34,407 nt of DNA, taken from contig JARLHR010000262.1 of NCBI GenBank assembly GCA_031292145.1, positions 1 to 34,407 of the forward strand. Direction: 5' to 3'. The stretch comes from Clostridium sp. GTDB lineage: Bacteria; Bacillota; Clostridia; Clostridiales; Clostridiaceae. The notes under the pieces are model-generated. The model did no database searches and was not told the DNA's origin. It saw nothing but the letters and a program-made list of their open reading frames with translations. Positions 1 through 18,050 of the stretch are shown here, piece by piece. Numbering within the stretch: position 1 is the first letter of the stretch; each line of letters starts with the position of its first letter. Both the position numbers and the translations under genes were made by a program.

Positions 1-1
1 A

Positions 2-2704
2 CCAGCTTATACATTAGGTGGATCTGGTGGCGGTATCGCTGATAATGAAGAACAGCTTGAAACTATATTAAGATTAGGACTTCAATTAAGTACAATAGGC
101 CAAGTTTTACTTGAAAAGAGTGTTAAGGGTTGGAAAGAAGTAGAGTACGAAGTAATGAGAGACTCTTACGGAAATTGTATTACTGTATGTAATATGGAAA
201 ACATAGATCCAGTTGGTATTCATACTGGAGATAGTATTGTTGTAGCTCCATCGCAAACTCTTTCAGATAAAGAATATCAAATGCTTAGAACAGCGTCAAT
301 AAATATAATAAATGCAGTTGGAATTGAAGGTGGATGTAATGTACAGTTTTCATTAAATCCAAATAGTTTTGAATATGCAGTTATAGAAATAAATCCTAGA
401 GTTTCAAGAAGTTCAGCTCTAGCATCAAAAGCAACAGGATATCCTATTGCAAAACTTGCAGCTAAAATAGCCCTTGGATATGGATTAGATGAAATAAAAA
501 ATGCTGTAACACAAAAGACTTATGCATGCTTTGAGCCAACACTTGATTATGTGGTCGTTAAAATACCAAAATGGCCTTTTGATAAATTTTTTAGTGCAGA
601 TAGGCAGCTTGGAACAAAAATGATGGCAACTGGGGAAATTATGGCTATCGGAGCTAATTTTGAGCAAGCATTTTTAAAAGGAATTAGAAGTTTAGAAATA
701 GGAAAATATTCTTTAGATCATAAAAAGTTTAAAGAATGCAGTATTTCAGAACTTAAGGAAAAAGTAATGGCTCCGGATGATGAACGAATTTTTGCCTTAG
801 CTGAAATGATAAGAAGAGACTACATGATAGAAAGAATAAATAAAATAACAGGAATTGATATGTTCTTCTTAGAAAAAATAAAATGGATAGTTGAAGAAGA
901 ACAAAGATTAAAATTAAGCAAAATAGAAGATTTAGATAAGGAATGGTTACATCATCTAAAGAAAAGGGGATTTTCAGATAAAGCCATAGCTGATATGCTA
1001 AGAGTTAGTCCAGATGATTTATATAGATTAAGAGATATATGGAATATACGACCTTCGTATAAAATGGTTGATACTTGTGGTGGAGAATTTGAAGCATTAT
1101 CACCATACTATTATTCAACTTATGAGCAATACGATGAAGTTGAAGTATCAAATAATAAAAAGGTAATAGTTATAGGATCAGGTCCAATAAGAATCGGTCA
1201 AGGTATTGAATTCGATTATGCTTCAGTTCATTGTGTAAAAGCATTAAAGAAACTTGGAATTGAAACTATAATAGTTAACAATAACCCAGAAACAGTAAGT
1301 ACTGATTTTGATGTATCCGATAAGTTATACTTTGAACCATTAACAGAAGAAGATGTTTTAAATATAATAGAAAAAGAAAGACCAGATGGAGTAATACTTC
1401 AATTTGGTGGTCAAACGGCTATCAAGCTTGCAAATTTCTTGAAAGAACAAAATATTGTAACTCTTGGAACTACGGCAGACCAAATAGATTTGGCAGAAGA
1501 TAGAGAAAAGTTTGATGCATTATTAGAAAGATTGGAAATAGCAAGACCAAAGGGTAAAGGAATATGGTCAGTAGAAGAAGGCTTAGAAGAAGCTAGAAGA
1601 TTAAAGTTCCCAGTACTTGTTAGACCTTCATATGTAATTGGTGGTCAAGGTATGGAGATAACTCATGATGAAGATGAATTAACATATTACTTAGACAATG
1701 CTTTTGCTAAGGATAGTAAAAATCCAATTCTTATAGATAAATATTTAATGGGAAGAGAAATAGAAGTGGATGCTATATCTGATGGGGAAGATATATTAAT
1801 ACCAGGTATTATGGAACATTTAGAGAGAGCAGGAGTTCACTCTGGAGATAGTGTCACTATGTATCCAAGCCAAAATATTTCTGATAGGATAAAAGCTGAT
1901 GTATTAGAATATACTAGAAAGTTAGCTTTAGAAATTGGAATAAAAGGAATGATAAATATTCAATTCATAGAATTTGAAGGTCAATTATATGTAATTGAAG
2001 TTAACCCAAGAGCATCAAGAACAGTTCCTTATATAAGTAAGGTAAGTGGAGTTCCAATAGTAGATTTAGCTACACAAGTAATGCTTGGAGCTAAGTTAAA
2101 AGATTTAGGATATGGAGTAGATGTATATAAAGAACCTGAATTAGTTTCAGTTAAAGTTCCAGTATTCTCAACTCAAAAATTACCTAATGTTGAAGTAAGC
2201 TTAGGACCTGAAATGAGATCAACAGGAGAAGTTTTAGGGGTAGGTAGAAACATAAAAGAAGCATTATATAAAGGATTTGTTGGAGCTTATATGTATCCGT
2301 CAAAAGAAAAGGGTAAGATATTAGCAACAATAAATAAACATGATAAAGCAGAATTTTTACCTATAGCAAAGGATCTTGCATCAGTTGGATATAAATTCAT
2401 AGCAACTACAGGAACTTGCGCATTACTAAAAGAAGCAGGCATAGAAGTAGAAGAAATTAGAAAGATTGATGAAGAAGAACCAAATATTTTAGATATAGTT
2501 AAGAACAGAGAAGTTGATTTAGTTGTAAATACTCCAACTAAAGGAAATGATTCGAATAGAGATGGATTCTTAATAAGAAGAGCGGCAGTTGAAAGAAATT
2601 TAGGCGTAATTACTGCGCTAGACACATTAAGAGCAATTGCTGATGTAGAACTTGAAAAGTTTGATGAAAAAAATGATTTAGAAGTATTTAATATAGCTGA
2701 ATAA
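2..2704 (+). CDS. carB: carbamoyl-phosphate synthase large subunit, 5'-truncated by window edge
   Basis: The reading frame is open from the first bases of the window (it reads [11 protein letters not shown] before the internal ATG at 155), so this is the 3' part of a longer gene. About 900 residues are visible against roughly 1070 for the family, so about 170 N-terminal residues lie upstream. CarB makes carbamoyl phosphate from bicarbonate, ATP and ammonia delivered by the CarA glutaminase, for pyrimidines and arginine. The rest of the first ATP-grasp half comes first; the second half starts near 1160 with [14 protein letters not shown] and includes the typical [14 protein letters not shown] and [12 protein letters not shown] segments. 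The C-terminal MGS-like allosteric domain lies at about 2300-2640. A hairpin follows the stop. Identity is secure. Confidence 0.97.
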
Positions 2705-2718
2705 AAAAAGATATTTAC

Positions 2719-2755
2719 AAGGTCACTGAAAAAAGTTTAAATTTTCAGTGACCTT
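2719..2755 (+). terminator. hairpin after carB
   Basis: A perfect 14-bp inverted repeat (AAGGTCACTGAAAA with its complement) around a short AT loop, 14 bases after the carB stop. There is no clean T-run after it on the plus strand, so it may be a weak intrinsic terminator or an RNA-stabilising 3' end. Confidence 0.7.
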
Positions 2756-2886
2756 AAAATATGTCGCTAATTGGTAATTATATTGAGTCTTAGGTTATTT
2801 ATAGTTGATAGTTATTTAAAATTTTGATTATGTTTTTTGTTGAAATTTTTATTAAAGCAAATTTGCATAAAGAGTAATAGATTATA

Positions 2887-2915
2887 TTGACAAGCAAACG
2901 TTTGTTCTGTATAAT
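2887..2915 (+). promoter_or_regulatory. consensus sigma-A promoter of the SOS-type small gene
   Basis: TTGACA (2887-2892) and TATAAT (2910-2915) with a 17-bp spacer: a perfect vegetative promoter. The start of transcription is expected near 2922, about 33 bases before the ATG at 2955. The spacer is filled by a LexA-type box, so this strong promoter is probably held off in normal growth. Confidence 0.88.
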
Positions 2916-2937
2916 GTAATTAATGAACGTATGTTTG
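2895..2937 (+). promoter_or_regulatory. two LexA/DinR (SOS) boxes
   Basis: Two sites match the Gram-positive SOS consensus CGAACRNRYGTTYG at 13 of 14 positions each. Site 1 reads AGAACAAACGTTTG on the minus strand (2895-2908), inside the -35/-10 spacer. Site 2 reads TGAACGTATGTTTG on the plus strand (2924-2937), at the expected transcription start. Their centres are 29 bp apart. Position between and just after the core promoter elements is what a LexA repressor needs. The match is direct; binding is inferred. Confidence 0.78.
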
Positions 2938-2954
2938 CTAAGGAGATGTATATT

Positions 2955-3206
2955 ATGAAAGATATGGGAAGTTTTTTTGTTAAATTAAATTGTAAGAATA
3001 TTGATAGCATTAGAAGCATGATAATAGATAGACAAGGATATTACATAAGTGAACAAGAAAAATATATAATGTGTGCAGGAAAATATGATAAAAATGGATG
3101 GACTTTAGTATTTAGGGCAAGAAGCTTTGAGGAGGCTGAGGAATTAGCAAACTTAAATCCATTTACATATAAAAAAGATAAGGATAAATTTAATTTATTA
3201 CAATAA
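2955..3206 (+). CDS. small YciI-like protein, probably SOS-induced
   Basis: The start is the ATG at 2955, which has AGGAGATG at 2941-2948; an in-frame ATG at 2931 lies within the second SOS box and has no ribosome site. The product has 83 residues, no signal peptide and no membrane segment. Residues 41-70 (AGKYDKNGWTLVFRARSFEE and the following AEELANLNPF) resemble the end of YciI-type ferredoxin-fold domains, where a glycine-rich strand is followed by a helix rich in EEA and a D/N-PF motif. The His of catalytic YciI proteins is not visible, so enzyme function is not claimed. The gene stands alone between two terminators under a LexA-type promoter. It is not like YneA or SulA division inhibitors (no TM or LysM segment). 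Confidence 0.75.
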   Translation: MKDMGSFFVKLNCKNIDSIRSMIIDRQGYYISEQEKYIMCAGKYDKNGWTLVFRARSFEEAEELANLNPFTYKKDKDKFNLLQ

Positions 3207-3280
3207 ATTAAGAAACAATTAAAACATATTCTGTTTCATTAATTTTTTATTTAATATAAAAAGAATACATATAAATAGTA

Positions 3281-3320
3281 AAAACAAGCTTATAAATACA
3301 TTGTATTTTTAGCTTGTTTT
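3281..3320. terminator. bidirectional terminator between convergent genes
   Basis: AAAACAAGCT (3281-3290) pairs with AGCTTGTTTT (3311-3320), with an inner AATACA/TGTATT pairing. It serves the small plus-strand gene and overlaps the stop codon of the minus-strand HD-GYP gene, so both transcripts probably end here. Confidence 0.75.
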
Positions 3321-4428
3321 ATACTTCATATCTTACATTAGAAATGACAATTGAAAGGGCATCTATTAGATTTACTTTAGAACCAATCTTGCTCGGATAT
3401 CTACTTTTAATTATTTTTACAATAGGCCTTAATGGAAAGCTTGGAATGGTTTCTTCAACTACGCCTACATCACCATTGCTGAGACTTACTATTGTCCCGT
3501 TAGGAAAAGGAATAATAATTCTACAAAATACATCTAATATATTATGATCAAATAATGTACCAGAATTAGACATCAAGTATTCTAAAGCATCACTTGGGCA
3601 CATAGCTCTTTTGTATGATCTATCAGATGTTAATGCATCATAAACATCTGCTATGATTACAATCCTAGCTAGATAATTGATATTTTCACCGCCAATTCCC
3701 ATAGGGTAACCTAATCCATCAAATCTTTCATGGTGCTGCAGAGTTATTAATTTAATATGAGAACTTAAGCTGAAAAATCGATTCAAAAAGTCATAACCAT
3801 GCCTTGGATGTTTCTTTATTATTTCAAATTCCTCAGGAGTTAACTTATCAGGTTTTTGGAGAATTTCACTTGGAATAAATGATTTACCTACATCATGAAG
3901 TAATCCACCAATGCAAAGATAAGTTAAATTTTGCTTAGAGAGATTTAAACTAATGCCAAGAATTAGTGATATTACAGCAACATTTACAGAATGAGCATAA
4001 GTATAGTTATCCATGCTTTTAATATCAACCAGGGAGAGTAATACATTTTTGTTTGCTAATACATTTTCAATTAATTCTTCGGCGATTGTATTAATTGAAT
4101 TGAAATACTTTTTTTCTTGTTTCGTATATTCATTCATATTCTTTTTTTTAAAATCGTGAGAGGAGGCTATTCTTTCTATATGAGAAAAAGTTTCTTTAAT
4201 TACAGAAATAGATTTCTGCCTCAATTCTGGTTTTATAATATCTTCGATAACAGCAGAACTATAATCGTCAATAATATAAAGGGAAAATATTTTATGTTCT
4301 TTAATTTTCATTAAGGTGTCACTAGTTAATACAAATCCTGATTTAAGTAAGCATCTACCATCAGGAGTATATATGTTTTTACCTAATAATGAATTTTCCC
4401 TAATACACTCAATAGGAACTAATCTCAT
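3319..4428 (-). CDS. HD-GYP domain c-di-GMP phosphodiesterase
   Basis: A 369-residue soluble protein. Residues 140-305 form an HD-GYP domain: HDVGK at 178-182 holds the HD metal ligands and HHERFDGLGYP at 232-242 is the signature that separates HD-GYP from ordinary HD hydrolases. Family members break down cyclic di-GMP to pGpG or GMP. The N-terminal 1-130 region (MRLVPIECIR..., with the GxxL pattern of the small domain often fused to clostridial HD-GYP proteins) is probably regulatory; there is no receiver or membrane segment, so the input signal is unknown. The start has AAGGAGGT 10 bases upstream. The gene is monocistronic. A c-di-GMP riboswitch lies 12 kb away in this window. Confidence 0.93.
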   Translation of the reverse strand: MRLVPIECIRENSLLGKNIYTPDGRCLLKSGFVLTSDTLMKIKEHKIFSLYIIDDYSSAVIEDIIKPELRQKSISVIKETFSHIERIASSHDFKKKNMNEYTKQEKKYFNSINTIAEELIENVLANKNVLLSLVDIKSMDNYTYAHSVNVAVISLILGISLNLSKQNLTYLCIGGLLHDVGKSFIPSEILQKPDKLTPEEFEIIKKHPRHGYDFLNRFFSLSSHIKLITLQHHERFDGLGYPMGIGGENINYLARIVIIADVYDALTSDRSYKRAMCPSDALEYLMSNSGTLFDHNILDVFCRIIIPFPNGTIVSLSNGDVGVVEETIPSFPLRPIVKIIKSRYPSKIGSKVNLIDALSIVISNVRYEV

Positions 4429-4801
4429 AATATCATAAACCTCCTTATTAATAATAATTATTATATCACAAGTAATATGTAAAATTATACTACAATAATT
4501 AAAAAAAGTGTTAATAACAACTTAAATTGAGTTAATATGTAATATTTAATCAGAAATACGCATATTTCATAAATAACAAATGTTTTTTGTTCAAATTTTA
4601 TTTGTAATTAACCTATTAATTTAATATGGTTGAAAATAAAAAAGTCTAATTCGATTATTACTTTAGAATAATGTGAATTTTAGAATTGCTAGACAGCAAA
4701 GAAATAAAGTAATAAAATATTTACTATAATAAAGAATATTATGAAACAATATCATATTATTTTATAAAAATAATTTAAAAAAAAGATGGAGTGAGGACAC
4801 T
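4429..4801. other. AT-rich intergenic space between divergent HD-GYP and murI
   Basis: This 373-bp stretch holds the divergent control regions of the HD-GYP gene (minus) and murI (plus). It is very AT-rich, with a short AATAATAATTATTATT-type inverted repeat near 4446-4461. I see no ORF, RNA gene or strong promoter consensus that I would place with confidence. Confidence 0.5.
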
Positions 4802-5575
4802 TTGGATATGAAAAATAGCCCTATTGGATTTTTTGATTCAGGGGTGGGTGGATTGAGTGTAATGAGAGAAGCGGTTGCTATCATGCAAAACGAAGACTTT
4901 ATATATTTTGGAGATTCGAAAAATGCTCCTTATGGAATTAAGACGTTAGAAGAAGTTAAAAAACTTACTTTAAATGCAGTAGACTTTTTATTAGAGAAGA
5001 ACGTTAAAGCAATTGTGGTAGCATGTAATACAGCAACTAGTGCTGCAATTGAAGAGATTAGAGATAAATATAGGCATATTCCTATAATTGGGATAGAACC
5101 AGCTTTAAAGCCAGCTGTTAAGCTAAATAGAGAAGGTAATATAATAATAATGGCAACTCCCATGACTTTAAGAGAGCGGAAGTTTAAATCATTAATGGAT
5201 AAATACAGGGATGAAGCAAGCATAGTATCATTACCTTGTGCAGGACTTGTAGAATTTATAGAACAAGGAATATTAGATGGGAAAGAACTAGAAAGTTATT
5301 TAAGAGAAAAGTTTAAAGTATACTTACAAGGTAAGATAAGTTCAATTGTTTTAGGTTGCACACATTATCCATTTATAAAAAAGGCTTTATCTAATGTTGT
5401 TGGAAATGACGTACCACTTATTGATGGTGGAATTGGTACAGCTCAAGAATTAAAAAGAAAGTTAGCTGAAAAAAGTTTGTTAAGCGATTCAGAAGAAAGT
5501 AGAAAGATAATCATCTATAATTCTATAAATGATAATAAAATTATAGATTTCTGTTATAATCTAATTAATGTATAA
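4802..5575 (+). CDS. murI: glutamate racemase
   Basis: A 257-residue cytosolic enzyme that makes D-glutamate for peptidoglycan by cofactor-free racemisation with two cysteines. Both are present: Cys75 in ACNTATS and Cys186 in GCTHYPF (with His188). The start motif [13 protein letters not shown] carries the conserved Asp-Ser, and NAPYG is also present. The frame begins with TTG at 4802, which follows GGAGTGAGG (4788-4796) closely; the ATG at 4808 two codons later is an equally possible start. Length is normal for the family. It is followed by an inverted-repeat element rather than a clear terminator. Confidence 0.95.
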
Positions 5576-5658
5576 ATATAATTCAGAGGTATAATAATAT
5601 ATGAAATATTAATGAATTTATACTTATATTTTAGATAATAATATTAATTAATATGTAA

Positions 5659-5875
5659 GGCACAATCAAGAAAATAACAGACCAGTATGCTTGCCTATTT
5701 CGCGTCATACTGCGTCAGCAAATTCTACTAATAGGCCAACTATGAGCAGAATTTACTTTCTTGTCTGACACAAAATATGCACATTGAAAAAGAGCAGCTA
5801 TGCAGCAATACGAAACTTTTCTGCATATAAGAACATCTCATAGCATCTTTGGTCTATTATTTTCTTTCATGTGCC
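5659..5875. repeat. 217-bp MITE-like element with 25-bp terminal inverted repeats
   Basis: The left end starts GGCACAATCAAGAAAATAAC (5659) and the right end, read on the minus strand, starts GGCACATGAAAGAAAATAAT (from 5875). The two 25-base ends match at 21 positions. No ORF lies inside. The left half holds nested stems: CAGTATG/CATACTG, GCCTATT/AATAGGC and AAATTCT/AGAATTT. The right half holds a unit shared with 14446-14494. An internal segment at 5755-5771 resembles the terminal repeat again, so two elements may lie end to end. The element ends just before the ribosome site of the cyclophilin gene. A related end pair occurs at 24604-24671. Confidence 0.75.
5787..5835 (+). repeat. mini-hairpin repeat unit, copy 1
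   Basis: This unit (AAAAAGAG, a GCAGC-tat-GCaGC near-palindrome, AATACGAAACTTTTCTGCAT, then ATAAGAAC) matches 14446-14494 almost base for base outside the hairpin. The other copy has GTGGC-ttt-GCCAC in place of the stem, so the stem sequence changes while the flanks stay the same. Confidence 0.7.
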
Positions 5876-5900
5876 TAAATTGAGAGGAGAAATTAAAAGA

Positions 5901-6425
5901 ATGAAGAACCCAATTATTACAATGAATATGGAAAATGGTGGAGTGATTAAAGCAGAATTATATCCTGAAATAGCTCCAAATACAGTAAGAAATTTTGTGG
6001 ATTTAATTAATAGAGGTTTTTATGATGGATTAATATTTCATAGAGTGATTCCAGGCTTTATGATTCAAGGAGGATGCCCAGAAGGTAGCGGTATGGGAGG
6101 TCCAGGATATTCAATAAAAGGAGAATTCACATCTAATGGATTTAAAAATACTCTAAAGCATTCAAAAGGAGTATTATCAATGGCTAGAGCTATGCATCCA
6201 GATTCAGCAGGAAGCCAATTTTTCATAATGGTAGCAGATGCGCCACATCTAGATGGACAATATGCATCGTTTGGAAAAGTTATTGAAGGTATGGAAGTTG
6301 CTGATAAGATTGTTGTACAAAAGACTGATATGTCAGATAGACCTTATGAAGATCAAGTTATAAAAAGTGTTACAGTTGATATGCAAGGTGAAGAAATCGG
6401 GGAACCGGAAATAATTGAAGAATAA
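5901..6425 (+). CDS. ppiB: cyclophilin-type peptidyl-prolyl cis-trans isomerase
   Basis: A 174-residue cytosolic cyclophilin that speeds proline isomerisation in protein folding. The active-site pattern is complete: FHRVIPGFMIQGG (Arg48, Phe53, Gln56), SMARAMHPDSAGSQFFIM (Gln106, Phe107/108) and HLDGQYASFGKV (His116). The start at ATG 5901 is chosen for GAGAGGAGA at 5882-5890; an in-frame GTG at 5871 lies inside the terminal repeat of the upstream element and has no ribosome site. A short acidic tail (EEIGEPEIIEE) ends the protein. The nearby element means the native promoter may have been displaced or supplied by it. Confidence 0.95.
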   Translation: MKNPIITMNMENGGVIKAELYPEIAPNTVRNFVDLINRGFYDGLIFHRVIPGFMIQGGCPEGSGMGGPGYSIKGEFTSNGFKNTLKHSKGVLSMARAMHPDSAGSQFFIMVADAPHLDGQYASFGKVIEGMEVADKIVVQKTDMSDRPYEDQVIKSVTVDMQGEEIGEPEIIEE

Positions 6426-6478
6426 AGGATATATTAAATTTGAAGCTATAGATACTTGAAGGAAAAGAGGTGTTATAA

Positions 6479-6844
6479 ATGGCTAAAAGTAAGAAGTGTA
6501 TATTAGTATATGGATTGAGCAAGGAAGAAATTAATAAGATTGAAAGTCAAAATATTAAGGTAATAGAAATAAAAAATGATATGATTTCAATGACTTTAGA
6601 AAATATAATAAATGAAAGTACAAATGAAAATTCTTATGATGAATTGCCATTAGGTGAAAAGGCACTTATTTTCAATGGATTTAAGGATGAACAATTAAAA
6701 TTTACTATTAGATACATTAGAGGATTCATTCAAGGTGGAATATTAGCTATATCTACACCACAAAATTATAAGTGGACTTTTAAGTATTTGTTAGAGCATT
6801 TAATTGAGGAAAGAGAATGGTTTAAGGCAAATGGAGGAAAATAG
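6479..6844 (+). CDS. DUF3783 domain protein
   Basis: A 121-residue soluble protein that looks like the clostridial DUF3783 family. The recognised part is the second half: KALIFNGFKDEQLKFTIRYIR followed by ILAISTPQNYKWTFKYLLEHL, where the family has a T-P-x-N-x-x-W pattern. Function is unknown. The start has AGAGGTG eight bases upstream. It lies 53 bases after the cyclophilin gene with no terminator between, so it may be co-transcribed with it. Confidence 0.8.
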   Translation: MAKSKKCILVYGLSKEEINKIESQNIKVIEIKNDMISMTLENIINESTNENSYDELPLGEKALIFNGFKDEQLKFTIRYIRGFIQGGILAISTPQNYKWTFKYLLEHLIEEREWFKANGGK

Positions 6845-6908
6845 ACTAGCATACTGATTCGTTATTTTCTGAAATTTGCCACAGCACAACAAAAGGGGAG
6901 AAAGTAAA

Positions 6909-7577
6909 GTGAGTCGTGTAGGAGAGAATATAAAGCAAGCTAGAGAAAAAAGTGGTATGACAGTTAAAGCTTTGGCTAAGAAATTAGGAGTAGCAGAAAA
7001 ATTTTTAAATGAAGTTGAAATGGGAAGAAAGGTTGCATCTGAATCATTAATAGATAAAGCAGCAAAAGTTTTAAAGGCCGATTTAAATGATATAAGCATG
7101 GTTGTTACAGACGAAGCTCTCATGGAGGAAAGGAAGACTTTAAAAGAAATACCAAGAAGGAATACTGAAACTTCAGAAGTTTGGACAGATGCTTTTTCAT
7201 CAGTGCTTAGAAGTATACCTATATATAATTATTCTTTGTCTAACAAGAAAGGTTCTAAAGAGATGCCAGTTCATTCGAATAAAATAGAAAATTATCCTCA
7301 AGATAAAGTATTCTATTTGGAAATAGAAGATGATGAAATGAATGGATTTAGAATGTTAAAGGGAGATATTGCTTTTGCGCATAGTGTAAAAGAAGTAAGC
7401 AATAATGGTTTCTTTTTAATTGACTATAAAGGACAAAGAAAGATAAGACAAGTAAAAATTTTAGGAAATTCAAAAGTGCTTTTAGTGAGTAATGCAGGAA
7501 ATTTAATTACTGAAACTATGGAATTGAAAGAAATGGATGTAATTGCTAAATTAGAAAAGGTTGAAATTACACTATAG
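6909..7577 (+). CDS. XRE-family regulator with degenerate S24 (LexA/CI-like) domain
   Basis: A 222-residue protein. Residues 3-62 are a Cro/CI helix-turn-helix (ENIKQAREKSGMTVKALAKK and on). Residues 130-222 resemble the S24 signal-peptidase-like fold of LexA and CI, but the catalytic serine of the usual GDSM is replaced (DDEM, Glu143) and the position of the catalytic lysine appears as Arg180 in KIRQV. Self-cleavage is therefore not expected; the domain may act in dimerisation or sensing. The GTG start at 6909 is chosen because GGGGAG lies at 6895-6900; an earlier TTG at 6876 has no ribosome site. A strong terminator follows. The target genes are unknown. Confidence 0.85.
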   Translation: MSRVGENIKQAREKSGMTVKALAKKLGVAEKFLNEVEMGRKVASESLIDKAAKVLKADLNDISMVVTDEALMEERKTLKEIPRRNTETSEVWTDAFSSVLRSIPIYNYSLSNKKGSKEMPVHSNKIENYPQDKVFYLEIEDDEMNGFRMLKGDIAFAHSVKEVSNNGFFLIDYKGQRKIRQVKILGNSKVLLVSNAGNLITETMELKEMDVIAKLEKVEITL

Positions 7578-7609
7578 CATCATAGCAAATAAAACATATG
7601 TAATATGCA

Positions 7610-7650
7610 AATAGAGAATAATCACATGTTTGAATTATTCTCTATTTTTT
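7610..7650 (+). terminator. intrinsic terminator after the XRE gene
   Basis: AATAGAGAATAAT (7610-7622) pairs with ATTATTCTCTATT (7634-7646), followed by a T-run to 7650. The flanks also hold ATGCAAATAG/CTATTTGCAT, which could form a longer alternative pairing. Confidence 0.88.
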
Positions 7651-7713
7651 GTTGCATAAATATGCTATTTGCATAGTATGTTTATGTATATATTTATACA
7701 GGATGTGATTATT

Positions 7714-10700
7714 ATGCCTCAAGCAGGAAGTGGTATAGCTTCAAAAACCGATGCATCAATAGGTTTATTAACCAATGTACCAAAAGCAATATTGGATCAA
7801 ATTGGATATAAATACAGTTTACAAGAAACTCAGGATAATATGCTGGAGCTTATAATTTTATATAGAGATACGCCAGAACAGACACGTGCATTTATTGAAG
7901 GCTTGGGTGGTAAATTTCAAGATTTAGGATTTAATTTTGCAGTAATTAATATACCTCGAGATAAGCTAGAACAATTATCATTAAGTAACACTATTCAATA
8001 TATAGAATTACCCAAAAACTTATATGAGCAGGATGAAGAGAGCAACAGAGCATCATGTGTACTTCAAGTAAATTCTGATTATAGTGTTTTAGGTGATGGT
8101 GTATTAGTTGGATTTGTAGATTCAGGAATAGATTATACACATCCAGCATTTATGAATACTGCTGGAACAACGAGGATAGAGTACATCTATGACTTAAGTA
8201 CAGGAGGAAATGCTTACAATAAGGAAACTATAAATCAGGCAATAAAATCACCAAATCCATATTCAATAGTTCCATCTATCGATAATACAGGCCATGGAAC
8301 CCATGTATCAGGAATAGCGTGTGGTGGAGGAAATATAAATCAAATGTATAAAGGAGTAGCTCCTAATGCATCAATAGCTATGGTTAAAGCTGCAAGAGGT
8401 ACTGCAATTTTAAGTTCACAAATAATGCAGGGAATCAGGTTCCTTTTGGATAAAAGCAAAGAATTAAATATGCCTTTGGTTATTAGCCTTAGCTTAAGTA
8501 CGAATGATGGGTCACATGATGGAAGCAGTTTGCTTGAGCAATATATTCGAACTGTATCAAATTTAGAGAGGGTATCTATTGCTATTGCTGGAGGAAATGA
8601 TGGAGATGCAGGGCATCATGTTGGAGGTGAATTAACTAAAACTCAAAGACAGACCTTTAACATAGGAAGCGATGAAAAGTCATTAGTTATGAATTTGTAT
8701 AAAACAATTCTACCTAATATATCAATAAGCATAATAAATCCAACGGGGCAAAGTAGTGGTATCATTACTATACAGGAAGGGTATATTCAAGGTACTATAG
8801 GACGTGATAGATATGATATATATGTAGCAGGACCTAAGCCATTTCAATTAAATAGTGAAATAAAAATTATTCTTTCTGCTAGAACAGGATATCTTGCAGA
8901 AGGAGTATGGACTTTAGAAATAAATGTTTTAAATGAATACTTAGGAACTTACTCAATATGGCTTCCAGTTCTGGAGGCACTTAATCCTAGCACAAAGTTC
9001 ATGGAACCAATTCAATTTAATACTCTAGGAATACCAGCAACTGTAGATAATATAATTGCAGTAGGAAGTTATAATTATAGAACAGGTAATCTTTCATCGT
9101 TCAGTGGACGAGGGGCTCAAAATCAAGGGAATTTAGTAAGGCCTGATTTAGTTGCACCAGGGGAGGATATAGCTGGGCCGGTTCCAGGTGGGGAATATGA
9201 CATTAAAACAGGGACATCAATGGCAACGCCACAGGTAGCAGGAATATGTGCACTAATGATGCAATGGGGAATAATTAAAGGCAATGATCCGTATTTATTT
9301 GGCCAAAGATTGAAATATTATTTAATAAAAGGGGCTAAAAGAAGACGTACAGATGTAACATATCCAAATCCTTTATGGGGGTATGGAGAAGTATGTGCAT
9401 TTGATAGTATGAGCTTATTAGAAGCAGACTTAAATGCTATTTTAACTAGAGGGGATATAAAAGAGGAGGATATACTAGTAACAAATATTAGGTCTGATAA
9501 ATATAATACTCTGAGAAAAAATATAAAGAGGAAAGATATGGAGAGCACAAGTAATGTAAACCCTATGGCCAATAAAGGTAGATTAAAGGTTCAGTGTTTT
9601 AGAGGTGATAATTATATTCCAATTGATGGAGCAAAGATAACTGTAAGTGGGACACAAGGTACTGAAAATATAAAGAGTATTCAATTAGTTACGGATTCAG
9701 TTGGATTAACAACGGAAATAGAGTTAACAGCACCACCATTAGCGTATTCCTTAAATAAGAATAGCAATCAGATACCTTATAGTTTATATGATATAACTAT
9801 TGATAGGAATGGATTTAAGCCAATAATAATAAGAGGGTGCCAGGTATTTCCAACTCAAGTTGCATATCAAATATGTAATTTAGAAATCAGCTTAGGAAGA
9901 GGTGATATGAGGCAGGAAGTTATAAATATACAGCCTAATACACTAAATGGTAATTTTCCTCCTAAGATACCAGAAGAGGTTGATAAGCCATTGCCACCAC
10001 CAACCTCAGGAGTTGTATTGCCACAACCTATAGTTCCAGAATATATTATTGTTCATCAAGGAGGCCCTAATGATCCATCAGCACCAAATTATAAAGTACC
10101 ATTTAAAGACTACATTAAAAATGTTGCTTCATGCGAAATATATTCAACTTGGAATAATTCAGCATTAAGAGCAAATATTTTTTGCATTGTATCTTTTACA
10201 TTGAATAGAATTTTTACTGAATGGTATAGAGGTAAAGGAAAGAATTTCGATATTACAAGTTCTACAGCTTTTGACCAAGCGTTTAATTATGGTAGAAATA
10301 TCTATGATAGCATAAGCCAAGTCGTGGATGAAATTTTCTCTACTTATGTAAGAAGAAATGGTAAGAAACAACCACTTTTTACACAATATTGTGATGGAAA
10401 GAGTGTTACTTGCCCTCAATGGTTAAGTCAATGGGGAACTCAAGAATTAGCACAACAAGGTATGGTACCATTTGATATATTAAGGCATTATTATGGAGAT
10501 GATATTGAATTAGTTACAGCTGAAAAAGTAGCAGGAAGTCCTCAATCATATCCGGGACATGCTTTATCAATTGGCTCATCTGGTCCAGAGGTAAGAACAA
10601 TCCAGGGTCAATTAAATAGAATATCAAGGAATTATCCATTAATTCCAAAGCAAGCTGAAGATGGACAGTATACTCAAAAAACAGCAGATGCAGTAAAAAT

Positions 10701-10905
10701 ATTTCAGCAAGTATTTACATTGCCACAAACAGGGATAGTTGATTATGCAACATGGTATAAGATATCAGATGTGTATGTTGGGATAACAAAGCTTGCAGAA
10801 CTCACTACTACTGAATCAAGTAGATCATGGGGAACAAATGAGTTTATACCACCAATTATACCTGGATTAGACAATAAGAGAGGAATACCTAAATTTTATT
10901 ATTAA
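7714..10905 (+). CDS. Csp-type subtilisin protease fused to SleC-type spore cortex hydrolase
   Basis: A 1063-residue protein. The ATG at 7714 follows AGGATGTGA (7700-7708); the earlier in-frame ATG at 7669 has no ribosome site. Residues 1-112 look like a Csp prodomain. Residues 125-575 are an S8 subtilase with the full triad: Asp136 (VDSGID), His194 (GHGTHVSG), Ser502 (GTSMATP), and oxyanion Asn295; the insert at about 310-440 matches the jelly-roll of Csp germination proteases. After a linker (575-620), residues 621-1030 follow SleC from end to end: beta-rich pro-region, a KPLPPP segment near 758, the catalytic region from PEYIIVH (776) with IKNVASCEIYSTW (Glu808 is the likely catalytic residue by the SpoIID-like fold), and a peptidoglycan-binding domain at 950-1020. 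In other clostridia Csp cleaves pro-SleC to start cortex breakdown; here both are one chain. No signal peptide is seen. Confidence 0.9.
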   Translation: MPQAGSGIASKTDASIGLLTNVPKAILDQIGYKYSLQETQDNMLELIILYRDTPEQTRAFIEGLGGKFQDLGFNFAVINIPRDKLEQLSLSNTIQYIELPKNLYEQDEESNRASCVLQVNSDYSVLGDGVLVGFVDSGIDYTHPAFMNTAGTTRIEYIYDLSTGGNAYNKETINQAIKSPNPYSIVPSIDNTGHGTHVSGIACGGGNINQMYKGVAPNASIAMVKAARGTAILSSQIMQGIRFLLDKSKELNMPLVISLSLSTNDGSHDGSSLLEQYIRTVSNLERVSIAIAGGNDGDAGHHVGGELTKTQRQTFNIGSDEKSLVMNLYKTILPNISISIINPTGQSSGIITIQEGYIQGTIGRDRYDIYVAGPKPFQLNSEIKIILSARTGYLAEGVWTLEINVLNEYLGTYSIWLPVLEALNPSTKFMEPIQFNTLGIPATVDNIIAVGSYNYRTGNLSSFSGRGAQNQGNLVRPDLVAPGEDIAGPVPGGEYDIKTGTSMATPQVAGICALMMQWGIIKGNDPYLFGQRLKYYLIKGAKRRRTDVTYPNPLWGYGEVCAFDSMSLLEADLNAILTRGDIKEEDILVTNIRSDKYNTLRKNIKRKDMESTSNVNPMANKGRLKVQCFRGDNYIPIDGAKITVSGTQGTENIKSIQLVTDSVGLTTEIELTAPPLAYSLNKNSNQIPYSLYDITIDRNGFKPIIIRGCQVFPTQVAYQICNLEISLGRGDMRQEVINIQPNTLNGNFPPKIPEEVDKPLPPPTSGVVLPQPIVPEYIIVHQGGPNDPSAPNYKVPFKDYIKNVASCEIYSTWNNSALRANIFCIVSFTLNRIFTEWYRGKGKNFDITSSTAFDQAFNYGRNIYDSISQVVDEIFSTYVRRNGKKQPLFTQYCDGKSVTCPQWLSQWGTQELAQQGMVPFDILRHYYGDDIELVTAEKVAGSPQSYPGHALSIGSSGPEVRTIQGQLNRISRNYPLIPKQAEDGQYTQKTADAVKIFQQVFTLPQTGIVDYATWYKISDVYVGITKLAELTTTESSRSWGTNEFIPPIIPGLDNKRGIPKFYY

Positions 10906-10935
10906 TTAAAATCGTATTTATAATGCTAGGTTTAC

Positions 10936-10992
10936 AAAAATAAAAGACATGTGTAGCTAAATTCTTAGTATAAAAGCATGCCTTTTATTTTT
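10936..10992. terminator. bidirectional terminator
   Basis: A 16-bp stem with one mismatch, AAAAATAAAAGACATG (10936-10951) against CATGCCTTTTATTTTT (10977-10992), with a 25-base loop. It lies between the convergent fusion gene and the radical SAM gene and has T-runs in both directions. Confidence 0.8.
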
Positions 10993-10997
10993 ATAAA

Positions 10998-12014
10998 TTA
11001 AAACTTATTTTTTACACCTTCCAAATTAAATTCAGGAATAAAATCGGAGATATTAGAACCTTTATCTTGAATAAATCCATTTTTTATTCCAAGGTCTAAA
11101 GCATAGTTAATTAAGCTATCATAATGTTTAGAGTTAAGGGGCTTATTTATTTCAGGATAATTACAAGCTTTAAACATAGGCACATATTGATTCATTAAAC
11201 TTATATAGACATTATCACCGTATTTATTATAAATATAGTCAACTACCTTTTTTGAATCAAAAAGAAGTCCAGGAAGCATTAAATGTCTTATAATGACTCC
11301 TTTTATTATAAGACCAGCTTCATTAAATATTGGTTTACCTACCTGTCTAACCATTTCATCTATTATTTCTGTTGCATTAGAATAATAGCCTGTAGCATTA
11401 GAATATTTAACTGCATATTTATCATTAAAGTACTTAAGATCTGGTAAGTAAACATCGATGTATCCATTGAGGGATTTTATTGTTTCAATGGAATCGTAAC
11501 TATTTGTATTATAAAGAATAGGTATAATTAAATTATGTTTTTTTGCAATTTTTAATGCCTCTATGATTTGAGGAACATAGTGTGTTGGAGTAACTAAATT
11601 AATATTATTTGCTCCCTTTTCTTGAAGCTCTAAAAATATTTCAGCAAGCCGCTCAATAGATATTTCTATTCCAATAACTGTAAGGTTGCAGTTTGAATTT
11701 TGAATTTCTGGACAATTTGAATCCTGCTCAGAAGAAAAGCCTTGTCTAGATACCTGGCTTATATTATAGTTTTGACAAAACACACAATTAAGATTGCAAT
11801 GAGAAAAAAATACGGTACCTGAACCATTTTCCCGGGAAATAGGTGGCTCTTCCCAATAGTGTAAAGAGGCTTTAGCAAGCATAACTTTATTTGAAGCTTT
11901 GCAAAATCCAAGTTCATTATTATTTCTATTAACTTTACAGTTTCTATTGCAGAGTTTACATTCATTAAGCAGATTTAAGCTATTGTTTTCTATTTTATTA
12001 ATTGAATTGTTCAT
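10998..12014 (-). CDS. PflX-like radical SAM protein (COG1313 type)
   Basis: A 338-residue protein related to pyruvate formate-lyase activating enzymes. The radical SAM cluster motif is CNLNCVFC (Cys73, Cys77, Cys80). The N-terminal cysteines 19, 22, 26 and 38 (ECKLCNRNCKVNR, then GFC) match the extra metal site typical of the PflX group. The later segments LVTPTHYVPQIIEAL, PILYNTNSYDS and DVYLPDLKY are family landmarks. Residues 85-112 form a low-complexity insert rich in Ser, Asn and Cys. AAGGAG lies about 11 bases before the ATG. The substrate of this family is not settled, and no glycyl-radical enzyme lies beside it. Confidence 0.88.
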   Translation of the reverse strand: MNNSINKIENNSLNLLNECKLCNRNCKVNRNNNELGFCKASNKVMLAKASLHYWEEPPISRENGSGTVFFSHCNLNCVFCQNYNISQVSRQGFSSEQDSNCPEIQNSNCNLTVIGIEISIERLAEIFLELQEKGANNINLVTPTHYVPQIIEALKIAKKHNLIIPILYNTNSYDSIETIKSLNGYIDVYLPDLKYFNDKYAVKYSNATGYYSNATEIIDEMVRQVGKPIFNEAGLIIKGVIIRHLMLPGLLFDSKKVVDYIYNKYGDNVYISLMNQYVPMFKACNYPEINKPLNSKHYDSLINYALDLGIKNGFIQDKGSNISDFIPEFNLEGVKNKF

Positions 12015-12140
12015 ATATTTCTTAACTCCTTTATATACATTGCATGCTATATCAAGGCATTTTGTTTGTTCTAGACATAATTTTACCTAAAACAAATTAT
12101 AGCACATACAATATGAAAAGTTGTAATTCATATAATAAAT

Positions 12141-12181
12141 AAAAGATTCATAGTTCTATAAAAATGAACTATGAATCTTTT
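12141..12181. terminator. perfect 16-bp hairpin terminator
   Basis: AAAAGATTCATAGTTC (12141-12156) pairs perfectly with 12166-12181 around a 9-base loop. On the minus strand it is followed by TTTTATTTATT, which makes it the likely terminator of the YkvI-like gene. Confidence 0.85.
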
Positions 12182-12194
12182 GTGGAAATTGAAG

Positions 12195-12250
12195 ACTAAA
12201 TAGATTAAGAGGAGTTAAGGACTTTTGCTTGAAATCCTAATCTATTTAGT
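12195..12250. terminator. second long hairpin 3' of the YkvI-like gene
   Basis: ACTAAATAGATTA (12195-12207) pairs perfectly with TAATCTATTTAGT (12238-12250), with a possible inner AGGA/TCCT pairing. It starts 7 bases after the stop of the minus-strand transporter and has no good T-run, so it may be a 3'-end stabiliser ahead of the true terminator at 12141-12181. Confidence 0.6.
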
Positions 12251-12256
12251 TATGTC

Positions 12257-13318
12257 TTATTTATTGCAATTACAGTTATGTCTAAAATAAAATAATATAC
12301 ATTGAAATATAAAAATTAAGCTTAAAACTCCAAACATAGGATATAACTTAGTTATAAGATTTCCAAATCCAAATTGGGAAATTATAAGAGCAAAAATTAT
12401 AACTATAAATATAGCTTTTTTAAACTGAATATTAAATGTTTTATTTAAAGTTTTGCTTATGGAATATATATCTGATACCTCGGTGGAAAACATTTCTAAC
12501 CAAATAATAACTAGTAATAAAGCTTGAATAAGATTACCAAACCTATTTGCAACAAAAAGTAAGGGGATTTCGTATTTATATATATAAGGTTGATTCACAG
12601 TTAGCAATAAATTTATCATTAGGCAAAGTATAGTAAGTCCAATTGAGCCCATAATTACGCCAATAATCATGGTTTTAGTCTTTTTCATTTGATTGCTAAG
12701 TGGAACTAAAACTCCCGAAGCTGAAAGTGTATTATATCCTGCATATAATATCGTTGAAATAATAATTCCAGATTTTTTAGGTGGAAAACTGGAGATATTC
12801 TTAAATGAAATTGTATCTTTGCAAAATGCAAAATATAAAATTGTAATCAAAGTAAGAGTAAAGATTAATGCTGGAACAATAAAGGAATTAACTTCAATTA
12901 AGCCTTCTGTATCTCTAAGTAAAAAAAAGATGGCAATTAAAATCATAATTAATGAACCTACTATTTTAGGTATTCCAAAAAACTGATGAATTAAAGATCC
13001 ACTTCCAGCAAGAATTATAGAAGCACTGGAAATAAGAAAAAGGGTAGTTATTAGGCCCGTTAATTTGCCAAATATATTAGGACTTATTAGGTTCATCACA
13101 TCACTATAGGAATTAAGATTGTAATCAATACTTATTTTAGAAATTATACAGCTCATTAAAATATAGAAAATGCCACATACAATAATGCCTAAAAAACTTT
13201 CTATCCCATATTGAGTAAAAAATTCTGTAATTTCTTGTCCAGAAGCAAGTCCAGCACCAACGATTGTACCGATAAATACTGTGGCAACTTGAAAGACTTT
13301 GATTAATTCCTTTTTCAA
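12257..13318 (-). CDS. YkvI-like integral membrane transporter (LeuT/APC-type fold)
   Basis: A 353-residue protein with about ten hydrophobic segments. The first one, VATVFIGTIVGAGLASGQEI, is the hallmark of the YkvI family (COG3949): an unwound first helix with GAGLASGQE, as in sodium-coupled amino-acid transporters of the LeuT superfamily. The substrate is not known. The frame starts with TTG at 13316-13318, eight bases after AGGGGGAT; no better ATG is nearby, so I accept TTG. The tail ends in a His/Cys/Asn-rich stretch (RHNCNCNK). It is divergent from the radical SAM gene at 13459 across 140 bases. Confidence 0.88.
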   Translation of the reverse strand: MKKELIKVFQVATVFIGTIVGAGLASGQEITEFFTQYGIESFLGIIVCGIFYILMSCIISKISIDYNLNSYSDVMNLISPNIFGKLTGLITTLFLISSASIILAGSGSLIHQFFGIPKIVGSLIMILIAIFFLLRDTEGLIEVNSFIVPALIFTLTLITILYFAFCKDTISFKNISSFPPKKSGIIISTILYAGYNTLSASGVLVPLSNQMKKTKTMIIGVIMGSIGLTILCLMINLLLTVNQPYIYKYEIPLLFVANRFGNLIQALLLVIIWLEMFSTEVSDIYSISKTLNKTFNIQFKKAIFIVIIFALIISQFGFGNLITKLYPMFGVLSLIFIFQCILFYFRHNCNCNK

Positions 13319-13458
13319 TATTTATCCCCCTAAAGAATTATTACTTGTACTAATATATAAGGTTTACTTTTAATTTATTCTTTAAATGTTACAATATTAA
13401 AGAAATGTTTTTTTATTAATAGTAATATAAGAATAGTTAATACAGATAGGGAGGATGT

Positions 13459-15429: not shown

Positions 15430-16251
15430 TTATCTCCAATGAATAGCTGTAAACAACTTTTCCATAAAACCAGATTTTTCACTCTGTGCTTCTATTTCCT
15501 TTTGAAGATAATAAGCTTGTTCAATTACATCTTTAAATCTTTTAATTTCGGTTATCAAATTGTTGTCTCGAGATATAGATGTTTGATTAAATTCATTAAG
15601 CTGCGATTTTATGTTGCTTTCTAATGAATTTTTTTCAGAAGTTAGAATACCTATTTTTGAGGAAAGTTCATTGTATAAATCTCTATTTGTCTTATATTCC
15701 ACATCAAATTTATAATCAATATATCCCTTGAGTTCAGCTAGGATATCACTTCTAAGTAGCTCAAGGCTTTTATTTTGCTCTTGAACTATTACTTCTGCAA
15801 TTTTTTGAATAGATAATTGATTATTTTCATTAATTTTATCAGTTAAATATTCTTTTAAATTCTCAATTTCTTTATTTTCTGACGCTATAATTGTAGATAT
15901 GATTTCCTTGATGGATAAAGAATTAGTTTCTTTAATTTCCATTAAATCTTCAATATTCAATGGTAATTCTTTGCAGTAGCTTTGAATTTCTTTGATAGTC
16001 ATTCCTTTATTTTTTAAATTAATTAAGAATTCAAGTTTATCTATGTCATTGCTTGTGTATCTTAATTCCTTGTCTGATATTTCTATTTTTAAAATATTAT
16101 CAAAAACGTTAGTATAATATAAGATATTCCTATCTTCTTCACCTAATAGGGCAGCTACTTGGCTAATTGAATAATATAATATATCTCCTCTTTTTTTATT
16201 TTTTATAGTGATTTCTTCATCGATATCTATTTGCTTATCTTTAGAATTCAT
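15430..16251 (-). CDS. MerR-type HTH protein with long coiled coil (RacA-like architecture)
   Basis: A 273-residue protein. Residues 26-93 form a MerR-like winged helix (YYSISQVAALLGEEDRNILY; then LRYTSNDIDKLEFLINLKNK). Residues about 105-265 are almost wholly helical with heptad-like Leu/Ile spacing, and there is no ligand-binding domain. A MerR head with a long coiled coil is the build of RacA, the B. subtilis chromosome-anchoring protein of sporulation; this is a likeness of architecture, not shown homology. AAGGGGGAT lies about 12 bases before the ATG. A c-di-GMP-I riboswitch and terminator lie about 290-450 bases upstream on the same strand. The divergent neighbour is a TubZ-like GTPase. 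Confidence 0.82.
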   Translation of the reverse strand: MNSKDKQIDIDEEITIKNKKRGDILYYSISQVAALLGEEDRNILYYTNVFDNILKIEISDKELRYTSNDIDKLEFLINLKNKGMTIKEIQSYCKELPLNIEDLMEIKETNSLSIKEIISTIIASENKEIENLKEYLTDKINENNQLSIQKIAEVIVQEQNKSLELLRSDILAELKGYIDYKFDVEYKTNRDLYNELSSKIGILTSEKNSLESNIKSQLNEFNQTSISRDNNLITEIKRFKDVIEQAYYLQKEIEAQSEKSGFMEKLFTAIHWR

Positions 16252-16994: not shown

Positions 16995-18050
16995 ATGGAA
17001 AAGAGTAAAATATTATTGGTTGCATTAGGACAAGGTGCAGGTAATATAGTAGATGGTTTATTAAGTAAAAATAAGAGCTACAATGGATTATTTTTTAATA
17101 GCAGCTTATTTTATATAAAGCCATTAAAGAATGCTAATATAGATAAAAATGTTTATTTGTATCCAGGAACTGATGGTTCTGGAAGGGATAGAAACAGATC
17201 AAAAGAAATGATAAATGATAATGCAAATGCAATAGGGACTTTATTGAGAAAATATCCGCAGACAGAAGTTATGGTCGTTTTTACAAGTATGGCAGGCGGA
17301 ACAGGATCTGGAGCTATTAAAACTTTTATACAAATAGCTTCTGCGGCTATCCCTTCTACAAAAATAAATGTAGTGGCAATTCTACCAAGTTTAACAGAAG
17401 ATCAATTATCATTTAAAAATACTATAGAATGTTGGAATGATATTAATAGCGTAATTGATCTAATAAGTGATATTAAATTTGTTGATAATAATAAAAGAAA
17501 GACATATAAAGAAATAAATAATGAAGTAGTTGAGAGTTTAGATTTAGCATATAATCTAATGGGTATTCATGCTGATGGTAATATTGATAGGAAAGATTCA
17601 TTTAGAATAAATACAGCTGATGGAACAGGCATTGTTTTAAAACTTTATGATGGGTTAAAAGATGCAAAGAATGCTATAGATTTAGCTATAAAAAATAGTG
17701 TATTTGCACAACCAGATACATATGATTGTGATTATTTGGGTATAAATTTAAAAACAGATGGTTATCATCCAAATGAAGTTTCTAAATGTTTTGAAGTTTA
17801 TAGAAGTACATATATGACATATAATGATGAATTTAACGTAGTTGTTCTTGGAGGCTGTGAAATTCCTACACAATCAATTAAATTAATAAAAATGGCATTA
17901 GATGATAAATCTAAGAGAAAGTTATCAAGAGATAAAAAGAGAAGTCTTATTATAGATTTCGATGATGAAGGTATTAGTAAAGAAAATAATAGTAGAAGGG
18001 AAGAATCACATACAGGTAGTGATGAAAAGTTAGAGTTTTCTTTTGAATAA
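16995..18050 (+). CDS. TubZ-like tubulin/FtsZ-family GTPase
   Basis: A 351-residue protein. Motifs in order: GQGAGN at 12-17 (T1, phosphate), AGGTGSG at 100-106 (T4 tubulin signature), LPSLTED at 130-136 (T5), VDNNKRK at 163-169 (T6), and ADGNIDRKDS at 193-202 with Asp198 in the place of the catalytic T7 Asp. From memory the motifs and spacing follow TubZ of Clostridium botulinum phage c-st more closely than FtsZ (which has GGGTGTG). The tail has a basic patch (KSKRKLSRDKKR, 305-316) followed by an acidic end, as in TubZ, where it takes part in partner binding. TubZ filaments move plasmid or phage DNA bound by TubR at tubC; no tubR or phage gene is seen here. AGGGGGAT precedes the ATG. The divergent neighbour is a MerR/coiled-coil protein. 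Confidence 0.9.
   Translation: MEKSKILLVALGQGAGNIVDGLLSKNKSYNGLFFNSSLFYIKPLKNANIDKNVYLYPGTDGSGRDRNRSKEMINDNANAIGTLLRKYPQTEVMVVFTSMAGGTGSGAIKTFIQIASAAIPSTKINVVAILPSLTEDQLSFKNTIECWNDINSVIDLISDIKFVDNNKRKTYKEINNEVVESLDLAYNLMGIHADGNIDRKDSFRINTADGTGIVLKLYDGLKDAKNAIDLAIKNSVFAQPDTYDCDYLGINLKTDGYHPNEVSKCFEVYRSTYMTYNDEFNVVVLGGCEIPTQSIKLIKMALDDKSKRKLSRDKKRSLIIDFDDEGISKENNSRREESHTGSDEKLEFSFE

Follow-up and report, generated by a model that had tools for sequence, protein, structure and literature searches.

Gene content of the locus

The window analysed here, that is, the whole stretch of 34,407 nucleotides taken from a Clostridium draft genome of 282 contigs, carries a gene in which a complete CspB-type protease (prodomain, catalytic triad and jelly-roll) is joined to a complete prepro-SleC, as judged by profile searches and searches of PDB sequences. 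The gene, its domains and the elements at its junction are the following:

7714..10905, + strand: fused csp-sleC gene, one stop-free open frame of 1063 codons plus stop
7744..8016, + strand: CspB prodomain, residues 11-101 (Pfam PF18425, E 3e-21, 75.5 bits against a cut-off of 25)
8029..8034, + strand: predicted Csp autoprocessing site Gln106/Asp107, placed by alignment with the start of 4i0w_B
8032..9423, + strand: Csp subtilase domain with jelly-roll insert (Peptidase_S8 from residue 127, E 7e-39; 4i0w_B alignment)
8119-8121, 8293-8295 and 9217-9219, + strand: triad Asp136, His194 and Ser502, present in 16 of 16 fused genes
9424..9576, + strand: linker, residues 571-621, a translated former intergenic region, stop-free in all 16 fused genes
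9478..9508, + strand: box GTAACAAAT-N13-AATATAATA inside the linker, a putative sigma-K-like promoter relic of sleC
9526..9540, + strand: SD-like AAGAGG and in-frame ATG (Met609), a possible separate SleC start, ATG in 15 of 16 fused genes
9577..9912, + strand: SleC pre-region, residues 622-733 (alignment with the SleC pre-pro-form 9h68)
9910..9912, + strand: Arg733, predicted YabG cut (MR/QEVI), aligned with Arg119 of the C. difficile SRQS
9913..10902, + strand: pro-SleC, residues 734-1063, propeptide and SpoIID-type lytic domain (Pfam, 9h68 alignment)
10135-10137, + strand: Glu808, SpoIID-type, in 16 of 16 fused genes
10579..10761, + strand: peptidoglycan-binding domain, residues 956-1016 (Pfam PF01471, PG_binding_1, E 6e-13, 49 bits against a cut-off of 23)
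10837..10902, + strand: C-terminal tail NEFIPPIIPGLDNKRGIPKFYY, conserved with changes in the 16 fused genes

Ribosome-binding strength is highest (-8.0 kcal/mol) for the ATG at 7714 among the frame's three early ATGs; the scoring covered ATGs, and an in-frame TTG lies upstream at 7669. The first-pass annotation of this DNA had described a single uninterrupted frame with an S8 triad at these three residues, a Csp-type jelly-roll insert and a SleC half with pro-region, catalytic region and peptidoglycan-binding domain, and all of these elements were recovered. C. perfringens CspB (4i0w_B) aligned with residues 109-569 (E 1.5e-160) without a break in sequence across the jelly-roll insert, and the start of this mature protein falls at Gln106/Asp107, where Gln is found in 15 of the 16 fused genes. 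For comparison, PMC3567191 gives YTS as the P3-P1 residues for autoprocessing in C. perfringens CspB and Gln66 in C. difficile. The SleC pre-pro-form 9h68_A aligned with residues 622-1031 (E 9e-116), while the SpoIID profile (PF08486) matched residues 794-872 (E 3e-4) with 22 bits, slightly below its cut-off of 23. We take Glu808 to be the catalytic residue by analogy with SpoIID, and its column holds Glu in 100 of 100 aligned SleC-type sequences, a few of which are near-duplicates. A second Csp domain, as in CspBA, was absent from the chain in Pfam and NCBIfam searches, the second half being SleC.

Distribution of the fused gene

Residues 480-760, which span the junction, were searched against 68 genomes of the genus, that of the window included, and a frame of 1058-1081 codons runs through the junction without a break in 13 of them (G000, G008, G023, G027, G028, G030, G034, G038, G043, G051, G098, G099 and G104), with two copies each in G000, G027 and G098 and thus 16 fused genes in total. 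Four of the carriers (G008, G030, G043 and G051) are single-contig genomes. Besides, named genomes contained at least five unbroken fused frames among at least 80 loci, the carriers among the matches listed being a genome labelled C. beijerinckii HUN142, Clostridium sp. LS (two frames) and two metagenome-assembled genomes. In a search of 98 genomes, 39 of them outside the genus, two of these 39 appeared among the matches listed, the stronger being G095 (E 4e-91), which matched in the SleC half only. The fusion is real and clade-wide, and is neither chance nor artefact.

No description of a Csp-SleC fusion was found in the open-access literature, most subscription journals lying outside this scope, and the available parts of papers on sporulation genes of C. 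beijerinckii and C. perfringens and on sporulation gene sets do not mention it. The earlier remark that this build is not known to have been described agrees with that survey.

Some of the additional copies deserve separate mention. In G104, another fused copy at the native locus (L050:6001-8625) is split into three frames, and the second copy of that genome is intact. The second G098 copy (L183, G098:C2:4000-22000, at 7915-11106) lies on a 73-kb contig and is flanked by an apparent replication initiator and ParA, both named by eye, so that this germination gene seems plasmid-borne. A plasmid origin was also considered and found no support, as none of 72,556 plasmid records covers 80% of the protein. 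In the genome of the window (G000), a further contig (G000:C247:1-13025) is collinear with positions 1-13322 of the window at 82-90% DNA identity and carries the second fused copy. Since ileS and metG are single-copy in this genome and each of the two collinear contigs terminates within the shared stretch or at its border, this copy probably reflects a draft assembled from two strains rather than a duplication.

The linker as coding and possible regulatory DNA

The linker contains no in-frame stop in any of the 16 fused genes, and none was found between residues 575 and 621, where a stop had been named as evidence against the fusion, whereas each of the other frames holds 4-10 stops per sequence. 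Linker lengths are 47, 48, 51 and 53 codons, every length change amounting to whole codons. Taken together, the open frame in all copies, the stops in the other frames and the codon-multiple lengths suggest that read-through is under selection.

At the DNA level, the linker aligns with the sequences upstream of six stand-alone sleC genes that descend from the fusion (z 15-35) and, which is the more telling result, with those preceding sleC in its unfused state in seven of eight cases (z 2.2-8.0); these eight regions come from seven genomes, and one lies between two sleC copies. The weakest of the aligning regions was that of G025, for which 2 of 100 shuffles scored equally high, and the G046a region upstream of an unfused sleC gave no alignment with the linker (z -0.3). 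Related DNA ahead of the stand-alone sleC of G055 and G038 contains in-frame stops. Moreover, conservation in the linker extends to synonymous positions: for the block of codons 589-606 in the 16 fused genes, codons for the same amino acid agree in 86% of pairs, where 69% would be expected (z 3.5). Of 1040 windows of 18 codons ranked by synonymous constraint, the top 12 each overlap the linker, and a run with 13 genes likewise ranked a linker window first. By sequence comparison, these relationships show a fusion of neighbouring csp and sleC genes with linker DNA that is related to the old intergenic region.

Within the linker, GTAACAAAT is followed by 13 bases, AATATAATA, AAGAGG and ATG, in this order. 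The spaced box occurs once in the window (0.017 by chance) and 15 times, at fixed spacing, in 369,024 bases of 31 loci, always directly ahead of the SleC coding part (ten fused, four stand-alone and one unfused), the pattern having been derived from the same sequences against which it was scanned. Nine of the 15 occurrences read AAC, the other six AAT. The scan misses L186 (one fused and one stand-alone copy), the stand-alone L179 and the unfused L173-L177, L180 and L188, where the boxes differ. Against the promoter reading, the -10 element of the clade starts with A, in fused genes as in stand-alone ones, where seven of eight unfused regions have C. The unfused G005 reads AACA-N16-CATATGATA, which we take to fit the sigma-K consensus. 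Sigma-K promoters have a -10 element like that of sigma-E (CATA...TA). In C. difficile, PMC3789822 assigns the sleC promoter to sigma-K (AC at -35) and the csp promoter to sigma-E (ATA at -35). Upstream of the fused gene, GCATAAATA and CATAGTATG at 7654-7680 resemble, by eye, a sporulation promoter; they are largely retained in the two nearest of three other aligned copies, in an alignment that covered 4 of 22 copies. The two-promoter layout may therefore, on our reading of these motifs, have been retained through the fusion.

An identical SD-ATG stands ahead of stand-alone sleC paralogues, and the single exception to Met609 is G043, which has ACG and then a GTG. The resemblance of the linker to an old sleC promoter and ribosome-binding site suggests that extra SleC may be made alone. 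Ribosome-binding strength taken by itself is a weakened argument for an internal start, Met609 being one among the better internal Mets: its SD is fair and not outstanding, since in 12 of 13 genes 2-4 of the 13-19 other internal Mets are equal or stronger, with 24 of the 210 comparison Mets coming from the neighbouring carB frame.

Other Csp and SleC proteins of the genome

The genome of the window encodes a stand-alone SleC on contig C233, 84% identical to the SleC half of the fusion, and a CspB-like protein of 610 aa with a full triad on C282. Six more Csp frames (two on C282, one on C269, two on C248 and one on C20) bring the further Csp frames to seven, with triads intact wherever the region is present, and two fragments lie on C279 and C168. 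These numbers may be overestimates, the draft probably being a mixture. These proteins rule out the fused gene as sole source of SleC or Csp in this genome, and the separate SleC and the seven Csp frames make the fused protein one of several players.

Other unusual proteins were observed along the way. A 1424-residue open frame on C282 (L128:126-4397, - strand) contains three tandem Csp protease units, the third incomplete by alignment, and two more Csp genes adjoin it. SleC-like proteins whose single chains carry 4 to 11 peptidoglycan-binding stretches are encoded at L085:2251-5469 (- strand), L120:5920-10518 (+ strand) and L121:1807-4440 (+ strand). Elsewhere in the window, a chromosomal protein at 16995-18050 (+ strand) has a tubulin/FtsZ-like GGTGSG stretch and is possibly TubZ-like; next to it, at 15430-16251 (- strand), lies a regulator that appears MerR-like by eye.

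Origin of the fused gene and its descendants

In five genomes (G005, G022, G039, G025 and G019), csp and then sleC lie as adjacent separate genes at the same chromosomal place as the fused gene, an xre-like and a ykvI-like gene flanking both fused and unfused loci and a radical-SAM gene adjoining in three of the five unfused-pair genomes. At the same locus, G032 and G050 have Csp only, with an intact triad, and in these proteins the last 30 and 39 residues of SleC persist in the Csp reading frame (L168:4665-4754 and L170:4132-4242). The remainder of SleC has thus disappeared, in frame, from an ancestral fusion; and the occurrence of Csp only at the locus of two close relatives indicates that the fusion is not obligatory. 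The same tail, NEFIPPIIPGLDNKRGIPKFYY in the window, is found in the stand-alone SleC of the window's genome as well as at the end of these two proteins, and its survival after the rest of SleC was lost hints that this segment (10837-10902 in the window) itself has some role, perhaps in spore targeting.

Trees were built from 27 Csp and 33 SleC rows. In the Csp tree, the Csp-only proteins of G032 and G050 cluster with 12 of 13 fused Csp (100/99), beside rather than deep within them, so that it is the tail and not the tree that shows their fused origin; the placement of G043 was not resolved by this tree. In the SleC tree, eight stand-alone SleC are nested in the fused clade (99/98, 99/95, 100/98 and 100/99) and the fused label requires five changes, which we read as one gain and several losses. 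In front of one of the stand-alone SleC, that of G104, a remnant of the end of Csp can still be made out by eye. The G055 stand-alone SleC (L181, G055:C3, 3616-4947) also falls inside the fused clade; its genome has no fused gene and holds a separate csp-sleC pair elsewhere, a pattern that hints at transfer between species.

Proposed processing of the fused protein and alternative explanations

In clostridia that use SleC, cortex breakdown hinges on one proteolytic step, in which Csp cuts pro-SleC. CspB-type proteases also process themselves, with the prodomain retained. After work on C. perfringens, we take the activating cut of pro-SleC to lie near residues 760-776 of the fused chain. Arg733, at the boundary between pre-region and pro-SleC, is retained in all 16 fused genes; in the wider SleC family, Arg occupies this column in 40 of 100 sequences and an Arg lies nearby in 67 of 100. 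The genome of the window has one PF05582 gene, which we take to represent the YabG family. C. difficile YabG cuts prepro-SleC after Arg119 in SRQS (PMC6464247) and also parts CspB from CspA (PMC10681294, PMC12880746). By analogy with CspBA, the chain is probably cut apart in sporulation: the retained Arg733 and the YabG-family gene suggest that Csp and pro-SleC are parted before dormancy, in which case the fusion would ensure joint synthesis rather than joint action.

The explanation that we consider the best overall, and hold with moderate confidence, is a fused precursor processed by YabG together with a separately started prepro-SleC, both the processing and the internal initiation being predicted from conserved residues and motifs. 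The precursor would be made in the mother cell during sporulation; its Csp half would remove its own prodomain after about Gln106, and YabG would cut after Arg733 and perhaps also in the Arg-rich linker, so that the mature spore would contain two distinct proteins, Csp and pro-SleC, supplied in equal quantity. During germination, active Csp would remove the SleC propeptide and SleC would then break down the cortex. In addition, the retained promoter and ribosome-binding site in the linker would give prepro-SleC alone from the same DNA. The timing would follow C. difficile, where csp depends on sigma-E and sleC on sigma-K: the fused precursor first (sigma-E-like) and prepro-SleC alone probably afterwards (sigma-K-like). 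More tentatively, and with a little less than even confidence, the gene can be seen as a nested dual-output gene that yields an early protease-zymogen precursor and later extra zymogen from the linker promoter and ribosome-binding site, the linker serving as both spacer and regulatory DNA, and that was afterwards separated again within the clade into Csp-only and SleC-only descendants.

These results support the interpretation of the first-pass annotation in part. Its two functional claims, that the fusion fixes the pair at 1:1 and that control must act within one chain, are unsupported in view of Arg733 and YabG, the stand-alone SleC and the further Csp proteins, including the CspB-like one with a full triad, the Csp-only proteins of two close relatives and the possible internal expression of SleC. 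With a stand-alone SleC and seven Csp frames present in this genome, where a search for separate csp and sleC genes had been suggested, control need not be confined to a single chain.

Among the alternatives, the chain could remain whole in the spore, with the Csp half cutting its own SleC half once germination is triggered. In favour of this, each half appears fully active, a linker of some 50 residues may be long enough to reach, and the frame has been retained. Nevertheless, we regard it as unlikely: Arg733 is conserved and a YabG-family gene is present, two relatives have Csp-only proteins at this locus, a separate SleC is encoded in the same genome, and CspBA, the fusion of C. difficile, is cleaved in sporulation. 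It seems quite improbable that two promoters supply most of the Csp and SleC as separate products, with a linker that is open by accident and a fused chain that is minor or useless. The promoter- and ribosome-binding-site-like DNA of the linker, and the ATG with the same SD at that position in stand-alone SleC copies, would fit such a situation, but the absence of in-frame stops from all 16 linkers against 4-10 in each other frame and the length changes in whole codons argue against it, as neutral drift in A+T-rich DNA should have closed some of the frames.

The conserved linker motif VTN...KYNILRKNIKRK-M might instead be maintained as protein, for instance as a docking or YabG-recognition peptide, and not as regulatory DNA. 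The linker is rich in Arg and Lys, and YabG cuts after Arg (PMC10681294); however, the excess conservation extends to synonymous sites, and related DNA lies upstream of stand-alone sleC with in-frame stops (G055, G038) and of unfused sleC, which makes this reading very unlikely. An assembly or sequencing artefact, for which the probably mixed draft of 282 contigs would be the obvious source, has a negligible probability, given the same fusion in 13 of 68 genomes, single-contig ones (G008, G030, G043, G051) included.

A natural chain that unites enzyme and substrate allows one to test whether both can safely be delivered together, and whether YabG parts them before dormancy. The locus also offers a gene fusion whose swallowed promoter and start site seem to be under selection within coding sequence, followed by re-splitting, and in which the joint in the linker still resembles the old start signals of the second gene.

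Comparison with known systems

The SleC pre-pro-form 9h68 resembles the second half of the fused protein in its pre-region, the Arg-Gln at the boundary of pre- and pro-regions, the lytic domain and the peptidoglycan-binding domain, but it is unfused; moreover, the alignment of its 480 residues stops at residue 1031 of the fusion, and it is thus without the C-terminal tail seen there. C. perfringens CspB matches the Csp half over its length, although in that species CspB and SleC are two proteins from two genes. These genes bear consecutive locus numbers (cspB, CPR_2567; sleC, CPR_2566) in PMC4433262, the kind of arrangement that gave rise to the fusion. A parallel in architecture is CspBA of Clostridioides difficile (NF040809), where a Csp protease is likewise fused C-terminally to another germination protein; it is made as one chain and then separated by YabG (PMC3567191, PMC10681294), whereas such separation is predicted for the protein described here. 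The NCBIfam model for CspBA (NF040809) matches residues 71-569 only, with 349 bits against a cut-off of 1250. The second half of CspBA is the pseudoprotease CspA, while in the fused protein of the window it is SleC, the substrate zymogen of the protease itself.
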